Shown: positions 42,385 through 44,791 of the stretch, piece by piece
Layout: each line of letters opens with the position of its first letter
How positions within the stretch are numbered: the first letter of the stretch is position 1
Origin: Candidatus Bathyarchaeota archaeon
GTDB lineage: Archaea; Thermoproteota; Bathyarchaeia; Bathyarchaeales; SOJC01
Reading direction: 5' to 3'
DNA: 64,000 bases
Assembly (NCBI GenBank): GCA_020354575.1
Contig: CP070649.1
Location: 1,401,098 to 1,465,097, forward strand
The notes under the pieces: generated by a model
Database searches by the model: none
Told to the model about the DNA's origin: nothing
What the model saw: only the letters and a program-made list of their open reading frames with translations
Program-made: the position numbers and the translations under genes

Positions 42385-42801
42385 TTATTTATCATTAATG
42401 ATGCCTAAAGCTTGAGAAGTTAGCCTTGCGTTTTTTCGGTAATTTCTATTATTAGCCAAGCCTTTTCTAATGAGGATCCCACGATCAGTTAATCTTGCTA
42501 AGTATGTAGAAATTGTGCTTAAAGATATAGGTTCATTATATTTTCTTTCGTAGATTGCAAGTAATTCTTTTGAAGAGAACCATCCAAAGGGAAGCTCTTC
42601 TTCTATTGCAAGTTTGGTTTTATCAATTTTTGAAAAACTTGCTGTTTCATATTTAAAATCATTCTTGTGATGGACGCCGCCTAATAATTCAACAATTTCA
42701 AACAAACGCAGAGCTTTTTCTCTAGTCACTTTTCCCTCGAAAGTGATGGTGTATCGATTACCACTCTCATCGAAGACATCTACTCGCATCTTTCTTGCAG
42801 G
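42385..42801 (-). CDS. Winged-helix protein upstream of nurA-herA
   Basis: About 138 residues starting MPARKMRVDVFDESGNRYTI. An N-terminal strand/helix region is followed by a winged helix: WFSSKELLAIYERKYNEPISLSTISTYLARLTDRGILIRKG (core LSTISTYLARLTDRGIL). It is likely a DNA-binding regulator, possibly of nurA-herA, from which it is separated by about 57 bases. TATA-like CTTAAATTC about 30 bases before ATG 42801 supports that start over ATG 42840. No exact family is recognised. Confidence 0.7.
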   Translation of the reverse strand, partial: PARKMRVDVFDESGNRYTITFEGKVTREKALRLFEIVELLGGVHHKNDFKYETASFSKIDKTKLAIEEELPFGWFSSKELLAIYERKYNEPISLSTISTYLARLTDRGILIRKGLANNRNYRKNARLTSQALGIINDK

Positions 42802-43000
42802 CATTGCATACCCCATAAATATGAATTTAAGCATTTGCACTTCACAAGTTATAGCTGTTATGAAAAAATGTTATTGTAAAAACAGTAAAAAATCAGGGTT
42901 AAATAGGCTAAAGGGCATTTTTTGCGGTTTGTTTGATTTCACAAGCTTCACAGTGACATTATACAAGCAAAGAACAGAGAACTCGTAATTATCCTCAATT

Positions 43001-43021
43001 TTCCAGAGGAAATCCAGGGGT
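43001..43021 (+). repeat. Origin recognition box 1
   Basis: TTCCAGAGGAAATCCAGGGG followed by T. The layout matches archaeal ORB elements (TCCA, GGAAA, then a GGGG block). Confidence 0.72.
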
Positions 43022-43145
43022 CTTTTCTTCACAAAAAATAGACAAGAATAACCTAAAAAAGGAAAATATAATTTTCAAAAAGAACAGAAGCAATTAAAAT
43101 TTCACATTTCCTTCACACAAGTTAAAAGAAACTCAAAGTACACCA

Positions 43146-43166
43146 ACCCCTTTGTTTCTTTTGGAA
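43146..43166 (-). repeat. Origin recognition box 2, inverted
   Basis: On the minus strand TTCCAAAAGAAACAAAGGGG followed by T, with the same 21-base spacing as box 1 but opposite orientation, so the two boxes point away from or toward the same AT-rich core. Confidence 0.72.
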
Positions 43167-43341
43167 CTATATTTAAGATCACGATTGACATTATGGATTT
43201 AAAATAATTATTTTGAAGAAAAAGAATATCTTACTCTAAAAAATTTTAGCAACTTTTTTAAAAGAGAATTTATTGAGTACCTTTTGGAGTATATTTCTAT
43301 AAATAGAAATCACTTCGACGTTTTTTCCTATTCTGTTATTT

Positions 43342-43362
43342 CTCAACTGGAAATTAAGGGGT
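43342..43362 (+). repeat. Origin recognition box 3
   Basis: CTCAACTGGAAATTAAGGGG followed by T. Same GGAAA-4-GGGGT register as box 1. Confidence 0.7.
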
Positions 43363-43479
43363 GTGGGAATAGTAATACAAAGTATTTCTCCATATTGCTC
43401 CAAAATGAGTTCTTTTTTATTTCCCAATTTTTGAGTTCTATAGTGAACTTCTACTTTTTTGTAGGAAAGAGTTTATTTT

Positions 43480-43500
43480 TTCCAATAGAAATGGTGGTTT
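43480..43500 (+). repeat. Weak origin recognition box 4
   Basis: TTCCAATAGAAATGGTGGTT followed by T keeps TTCCA and GAAA but has GG-T-GG instead of the GGGG block. It lies about 35 bases before the orc1/cdc6 start and might serve in autoregulation. Confidence 0.4.
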
Positions 43501-43534
43501 TGCAATTGCATTTGCTGAAGGGAGAAAATTCTTC

Positions 43535-44791
43535 ATGAGAAATAAGGAAGATATACTTGATGTTATATTTGAGAGATTTCTAAACAACGCTCTCATTTTT
43601 AAAGATAGAAATGTACTTCGCCATGATTATATCCCAGAGAAATTGCCTCATCGCGAAGATCAAATACAATATCTAGGTATGGTTGTTGCCCCACTTCTGA
43701 AAACAGAGCGATGTTCAAACATTTTCATTTATGGAAAAACTGGAACTGGAAAAACTGCTGTTATGAAATATGTCTTGAGTCGTCTCGTACAAAAGGCAAC
43801 AGAATTTGGTTCTCCAATAAAAGTTGCCTTCGTGAATTGTCGATTGGCTGGTACTGAATATAGAGTTTTTACGAATTTGTGCGATGCTTTAGATATTTGT
43901 GTACCTTTTACTGGTTTAGCTGTTGGTGAAGTATATGATCGTTTTAAAAAAGGATTGGAAGCAAGGAAAGCATCACTTATTATTGTGTTGGATGAACTTG
44001 ATGAACTAATTAAAGCCAAGGGTGATGTGCTTTTATACGAACTTACAAGAGTAAATGAATCTTTGAGTGATAGTAAGGTTTCTATTATTGGAATTTCAAA
44101 TGATTTGCGCTTCAAGGAATTATTAGAGCCAAGAGTGATAAGCTCTCTGAGCGAAGAGGAAATTGTCTTTAGACCTTATGATGCTTCTGAGATTCAAGAC
44201 ATTTTGTGGGAAAGGGCAGAATTGGGTTTCTGTGATAACGTCTTACCAGATGGAACTGTAGGCTTGTGTGCTGCTCTAGCAGCTGCAGAGCATGGAGATG
44301 CAAGAAGAGCGCTAGATCTGTTGCGCGTGGCGGGCGAGGTTGCTGAAAGGAAAAATGCAAATATGATTACCGAAGACCACGTCAAAGAAGCTGAGAAGAG
44401 AATTGAACATGATCGGATTCTTTATGCCCTAACAAATTTAACAACACACTCCAAACTTGTTCTCTACAGTGTGTACCTTCTTCTAAAGGCGAACATCCAT
44501 TCTGCCATTACAGGAGATATCTATGAGGTTTATTACGAATTATGCGAGAAATTAAGACTTTCAGCATTGACCCAAAGGCGAGTCAGTGGACTTGTAAACG
44601 AGCTCGATTCTGCTGGATTACTCAATGCAAGAGTTATAAGCAGAGGGCGTTACGGCCGCACAAGGAAAATTAGCCTTGCAATCCCGCGAAGTCCATTTAG
44701 AGAGGCTTATGCAGATGATAATCATTTAGGGCATTTAACTAATTTCACACCTAACTGCTTGAAACTCAAGAAAGCTAGGCGAAGTCCATAG
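43535..44791 (+). CDS. orc1/cdc6: Orc1/Cdc6 replication initiator
   Basis: A 418-residue AAA+ protein with a C-terminal winged helix. Walker A is IYGKTGTGKTAVMKYVL near residue 65, Walker B is LIIVLDELDELI near 148, sensor 1 VSIIGISNDLRFKELL near 187, and sensor 2 GDARRALDLLRVAGEVAE near 250. The C-terminal region LRLSALTQRRVSGLVNELDSAGLLNARV is the winged helix that reads ORB DNA. It would bind the boxes just upstream and load MCM. Its last 17 bases overlap the end of the polymerase D small-subunit gene on the other strand. Confidence 0.96.
   Translation: MRNKEDILDVIFERFLNNALIFKDRNVLRHDYIPEKLPHREDQIQYLGMVVAPLLKTERCSNIFIYGKTGTGKTAVMKYVLSRLVQKATEFGSPIKVAFVNCRLAGTEYRVFTNLCDALDICVPFTGLAVGEVYDRFKKGLEARKASLIIVLDELDELIKAKGDVLLYELTRVNESLSDSKVSIIGISNDLRFKELLEPRVISSLSEEEIVFRPYDASEIQDILWERAELGFCDNVLPDGTVGLCAALAAAEHGDARRALDLLRVAGEVAERKNANMITEDHVKEAEKRIEHDRILYALTNLTTHSKLVLYSVYLLLKANIHSAITGDIYEVYYELCEKLRLSALTQRRVSGLVNELDSAGLLNARVISRGRYGRTRKISLAIPRSPFREAYADDNHLGHLTNFTPNCLKLKKARRSP

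Follow-up and report, generated by a model that had tools for sequence, protein, structure and literature searches.

The closest described counterpart of the locus analysed here is oriC1 of Sulfolobus, which has an ORB3-DUE-ORB2 region of about 130 bp, with origin recognition boxes (ORBs) on either side of a duplex-unwinding element (DUE), and a further box, ORB1 (PMC12141716). The motif common to ORBs has been published as TCCA[CG]T[TG]GAAA[TC][GA]AAGGGGT (PMC4164010). How archaeal origins are controlled by proteins other than the initiator is little understood. One reported case is UBP, a non-initiator origin factor of Sulfolobus reported in 2025, which binds ucm, an 11-bp motif situated midway in the DUE (PMC12141716). 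In Haloarcula hispanica, a G-rich inverted repeat internal to oriC1 acts as a replication enhancer (PMC3936714).

Bathyarchaeota are abundant and largely uncultured, and the literature that we searched holds no study of a replication origin from any of them. Here we analyse a 64,000-base stretch of DNA (the window; bases 1401098-1465097 of a single-contig genome of 1.838 Mb), whose Orc1 has its nearest named relatives among Candidatus Bathyarchaeota, and compare the gap upstream of orc1 with the systems above.

The locus and its initiator gene

The gap is 694 bases long, intergenic, and directly beside the orc1/cdc6 gene, which occupies 43535-44791 on the plus strand. It is bounded on the other side by a divergent winged-helix gene (start 42804, minus strand), which is followed on its strand by NurA-like and HerA-like genes; genes for both DNA polymerase D subunits are found to the right of the gap. 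The encoded Orc1 (418 aa) has the AAA, Cdc6_lid and Cdc6_C domains of an AAA+ ATPase with a C-terminal winged helix, and scores 502.3 bits against the NCBIfam ORC1-type equivalog NF001625, for which the cut-off is 501. Its best PDB match is 2QBY chain A (E = 3.8e-116), with which its TQRRVS and RGRYGRTR segments align, and 2V1U is matched as well. These are the two initiators solved as Orc1/Cdc6-1 and are nearest to the window's protein, an initiator of the ORB-binding Orc1-1 type.

Origin recognition boxes upstream of orc1

An earlier note had placed three 21-base elements in this gap and proposed an ORB-type origin adjoining orc1/cdc6. The elements are real ORBs and lie exactly at the coordinates and on the strands it gave: ORB1 at 43001-43021 (+), ORB2 at 43146-43166 (-) and ORB3 at 43342-43362 (+). 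Specifically, ORB1 and ORB2 are exact matches to the pattern TTCCANNNGAAANNNNGGGGT, and they are the only two in the whole 1,838,011-base genome. If up to two mismatches are allowed, the genome contains 19 matches, four of them inside the gap, compared with 20 for the same pattern written backwards, which means that the other 15 are background. The element is thus not scattered over the genome at random, the distribution that the note had named as speaking against an origin.

Because TTCCANNNGAAANNNNGGGGT was taken from the window's own sequence, the motif was also learned blind, by Gibbs sampling of the orc1 upstream regions of 40 dereplicated relatives with the window's genome excluded. The sampling converged on TTTCCAgTgGAAAC.aAGGGGTg, which is the published common ORB (PMC4164010). 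The matrix obtained from the relatives alone gives its best scores in the window at matrix positions 43000 (+), 43145 (-), 43341 (+) and 43479 (+), with 34.2, 28.1, 20.7 and 10.8 bits respectively, and the next best score is 9.3 bits. In 406 kb sampled elsewhere in the genome nothing scores above 14.6 bits, i.e., the boxes matching the published consensus are concentrated in the gap and none above 15 bits occurs in the remaining sample.

The arrangement recurs across the order. In 150 other genomes, 139 of 145 exact ORB matches are found no more than 1.5 kb upstream of orc1 (the backwards pattern gives 2 matches altogether), and all 29 opposite-strand matches fall between -450 and -325 upstream of orc1. 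The latter represent the middle position of the box order > < >, which recurs in genomes of the order, and positional equivalents of ORB3 are present in nearly all of the relatives scanned.

The boxes are specific genome-wide and conserved in the order, and the solved proteins nearest to Orc1 are Orc1/Cdc6-1 initiators; the gap is therefore very likely an oriC1-type replication origin of this archaeon. The same elements could also be read as a regulatory cluster of Orc1 sites, serving autoregulation or titration, with the chromosome initiating elsewhere or without origins. A noisy GC-skew curve, computed from the window together with 40 sampled stretches (some 25% of the genome), reaches its minimum near 1.70 Mb as against 1.444 Mb for the locus, and gives no support to a single origin at 1.444 Mb. 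The genome also has a second Cdc6 gene, and Thermococcus kodakarensis is reported to have a dispensable ORB origin and to replicate independently of an origin (PMC5663688). However, the architecture is kept across the order upstream of an orthologous initiator gene, an AT-rich core is present, and the locus adjoins the genes for both DNA polymerase D subunits. We consider a purely regulatory cluster very unlikely.

The second Cdc6 paralogue (G000:C1:1595277-1596392, L013) is 28% identical. A second ORB origin at this gene was considered and dropped, since the surrounding 16 kb contain no ORB-like sequence. An origin marked by some other motif is therefore conceivable, and the paralogue may be either a regulator or the initiator of such an origin. 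We also note that metagenome contigs of the relatives frequently stop within the origin region (e.g., G086:C21, G068:C306, G082:C103 and G014:C211), as though assembly were difficult there.

Position of the AT-rich core

The earlier note had described ORB1 and ORB2 as inverted around an AT-rich core. The two boxes are indeed inverted, but the most likely place of the duplex-unwinding element is instead the segment between ORB2 (-) and ORB3 (+), at 43168-43340. This segment is more AT-rich than that between ORB1 and ORB2 (0.78 against 0.746) and contains the least stable 60 bp, centred at 43219. The relatives agree: in 34 of 40 genomes the least stable 60 bp fall between these two boxes, and the higher AT content of the two segments is found there in 36 of 39 relatives. 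Moreover, seven relatives without ORB1 and without the winged-helix gene have kept both ORB2 and ORB3. A corresponding arrangement, < AT-rich gap of 84-116 bp >, is found upstream of orc1 in four comparison genomes, which are called Sulfolobus-type by their Orc1 alone (a best PDB match to 2QBY chain A was tested for two of them). This polarity, together with the ORB3-DUE-ORB2 order in Sulfolobus (PMC12141716), favours a core at 43146-43342.

In support of the pair 43001/43146, no other boxes score as high, the intervening 122 bp are themselves 74.6% AT, and other Thermoproteota have convergent pairs 61-175 bp apart. That pairing nevertheless leaves the least stable and more AT-rich DNA outside the core, relies on a box, ORB1, that can be absent, and gives a polarity opposite to the divergent one about the DUE of Sulfolobus-type origins. 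It is therefore unlikely to be the core-flanking pair, and 43146/43342 fits better. Ahead of ORB3, at 43287-43310, there is also a near-palindrome, ATTTCTATAAATAGAAAT, whose inverted repeat is partly kept in the family alignment.

A degenerate box at the presumed orc1 promoter

A fourth, degenerate box occurs at 43480-43500 (+), again at the coordinate and on the strand noted earlier. Its TTCCA/GAAA half is kept and its G-string is degraded. On score alone it is not significant, since 10.8 bits compares with 9.3 for the next best site in the window and 14.6 in the 406 kb sampled elsewhere. Its position is shared, however: ORB half-sites above 5 bits occur at -62 to -40 before orc1 in 11 of 38 relatives and in none of three control intervals, and the equivalent box in one relative (L067) reaches 24.1 bits. 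The box lies just past a TATA-box-like TTTATTT at 43472-43478 (+), presumably part of the orc1 promoter, and in most relatives TTTAT(C/T)T or CTTATTT immediately precedes it. This placement suggests autoregulation, and the fourth box is possibly a site through which Orc1 controls its own gene.

A rigidly spaced array of TTCACA elements around ORB1

The relatives' upstream regions share a second motif. A k-mer count gives 164 copies of TTCACA, in 39 of 40 sequences, where 12 would be expected, and 31 copies of the reverse complement. Measured from the start of the 23-mer ORB1, the copies take seven offsets, -173, -158, -62, -52, +28, +101 and +112, which are occupied in 12, 27, 19, 23, 17, 27 and 25 of 39 relatives respectively; at other offsets the occupancy averages 0.04 and never exceeds 1. 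In these relatives 150 of the 159 copies in the stretch sit on the seven offsets; when the flanks are rotated as a control, the mean is 10.7 and the highest value 25 of 273. Because the array stretch is otherwise just 43% identical between relatives (ungapped), the fixed positions do not simply reflect general conservation.

The window holds six of the seven elements, every one on the plus strand: 42841-42846 (-159 from ORB1, within 1 bp of the -158 offset), 42938-42943 (-62), 42947-42952 (-53, at the -52 offset), 43028-43033 (+28, an offset with a standard deviation of 0.16 bp over 37 loci), 43101-43106 (+101) and 43112-43117 (+112). The array thus consists of about 290 bp of hexamers, with a spacing fixed to about 1 bp and with ORB1 inside, whereas other 280-bp stretches of the sampled genome have at most two copies. 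On each side of ORB1 the distances are close to whole helical turns: 9.14 and 0.95 for -158/-62/-52, and 6.95 and 1.05 for +28/+101/+112. Just 2 of 166 copies in the relatives lie between ORB2 and ORB3. We found no description of TTCACA at archaeal origins in the literature searched.

Spacing that stays fixed within otherwise diverged sequence might also be the signature of a non-coding RNA or of a short coding sequence instead of DNA bound by protein. The spacings of 15, 96, 10, 80, 73 and 11 bp, however, are mostly not multiples of 3 and shift by 1 bp, there is no Rfam match, and folding is no better than that of shuffled sequences on either strand (z 0.32 and 0.57). We reject the RNA explanation for want of both a match and a folding signal, and either kind of transcript appears extremely unlikely compared with a protein-binding array.

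TTCACA was also considered as the mark of a genome-wide regulon, which we rejected: the 14 other close pairs are scattered and, by a rough estimate, about as frequent as expected. A separate triple with 11- and 13-bp spacing is found in L157 near 1501 (genome position 800684), downstream of an RNA polymerase B subunit gene, where long open reading frames are absent.

The divergent winged-helix gene

The winged-helix gene (42385-42804, minus strand) encodes 139 aa from a conserved ATG at 42804, although its open reading frame reaches further upstream, as far as a GTG at 42840. Orthologues are found in 123 of the 151 genomes of the order. An AlphaFold2 model (pLDDT 77) places a winged helix-turn-helix (wHTH) in the C-terminal half of the protein, and its recognition-helix segment S-T-x-x-T-Y-L is invariant. 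At E<=0.1, 22 of 29 orthologues give weak Penicillinase_R/BlaI-like matches, the best of them at 2.7e-5; for the window's own protein there is no Penicillinase_R match at that threshold and none to a curated family. Searches against solved structures and folds return generic wHTH repressors alone, with no fold match at E<=0.001.

The gene, ORB1 and the array tend to occur together. Among 73 loci from two orders with enough flanking sequence, 48 combine the gene with ORB1 and two or more TTCACA, 20 lack all three, 3 have TTCACA alone and 2 are mixed; these are raw counts that ignore phylogeny, and the relatives are akin to one another. Since many genomes without the gene also have no recognisable ORB2/ORB3, just seven losses are cleanly informative, some of them in closely related genomes. 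In the second order, families with the gene mostly carry ORB1 and TTCACA and families without it do not, and four loci there have TTCACA near -48 and +32. G434, a genome outside the class that carries the gene, shows the hexamer at offsets -158 and -52 relative to its first ORB, and in three other Thermoproteota genomes (L255, L258 and L263) orthologues of the gene are likewise situated at loci with ORBs. The order of G253 has almost no close Orc1 match. One genus of the window's order (L224/G087 and L225/G091) has lost the gene, ORB1 and the array together; G087 retains ORB2/ORB3, and G091 has no recognisable ORB.

This co-occurrence would also fit an array that is the operator of the divergent winged-helix/nurA/herA cluster, with ORB1 coupling the cluster to Orc1 and no role in replication. 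The -158 element adjoins the winged-helix promoter, and the NurA-like and HerA-like genes come next on the same strand. However, over 62 loci, in which the winged-helix start lies 188-223 bp from ORB1, the TTCACA positions have standard deviations of 0.2-0.8 bp when measured from ORB1 but 3-7 bp when measured from the gene start. The array furthermore reaches about 310 bp from that start, past ORB1 and into the ORB1-ORB2 spacer. An operator without any part in replication is thus possible, though somewhat unlikely. We favour the reading in which the array and ORB1 constitute an accessory origin-control module, probably bound by the winged-helix protein; the narrower proposal that this protein recognizes TTCACA itself we regard as evenly balanced.

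Discussion

The sequences, their specificity and geometry, and their patterns of conservation and co-occurrence point to an origin in two parts, for which binding and function are proposed on these grounds. In the core module, the Orc1 encoded next door would bind ORB2 (43146, -) and ORB3 (43342, +) around the AT-rich element at about 43168-43340 and would recruit MCM as in Sulfolobus oriC1; judging from homology, Orc1 binding, MCM recruitment and melting at the core are most likely. In the accessory module, ORB1 (43001, +) lies inside an array that would most likely hold a separate protein, for which the divergent winged-helix product is the leading candidate. This protein and Orc1 at ORB1 could form a nucleoprotein complex that governs initiation and/or winged-helix gene expression, by timing initiation at the core or by coupling it to the winged-helix/nurA/herA genes. 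At the degraded fourth box, over its promoter, Orc1 would probably in addition regulate its own gene.

The locus resembles Sulfolobus oriC1 in the ORB sequence with its G-string, the site upstream of orc1, the Orc1-1-type initiator and the divergent ORB pair around an AT-rich element. It differs from the four Sulfolobus-type genomes in that the core spacer is 173 bp here and 84-116 bp there, and in that the additional ORB is separated from orc1 by the core and embedded in the TTCACA array, rather than adjoining one of the core ORBs. No TTCACA is found near the ORBs of those four genomes. Like ucm with UBP, TTCACA is conserved at an archaeal origin, is distinct from the ORBs and has a separate binding protein, here a candidate, but it is present in multiple, co-oriented and rigidly spaced copies outside the predicted DUE. 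With so few copies between the core ORBs, it does not share the placement that characterizes ucm. The G-rich repeat of Haloarcula hispanica is likewise an accessory cis element tied to ORBs and modulating an oriC1 (a modulation that would apply here by analogy), although that element has another sequence and is an inverted rather than a direct repeat, with just two copies.

In bacterial oriC, the sites for DnaA, IHF and Fis make up a nucleoprotein array of fixed spacing around the initiator's sites. The likeness of the TTCACA array to it would be one of function alone, as the proteins and the motifs are unrelated.

The locus offers exact coordinates both for a core and for another, rigidly conserved, element, together with a named candidate protein, and these bring a second UBP-like case within reach of experiments on short DNA and two small proteins. 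Whether Bathyarchaeia and some other Thermoproteota have an origin in two parts, an ORB2-DUE-ORB3 core and a dedicated control module of ORB1, a helically spaced TTCACA array and a winged-helix protein, encoded at the origin, that binds the array, is in our judgement about an even call. If they do, this would be a previously undescribed system of sequence-specific origin binding by a protein other than Orc1.
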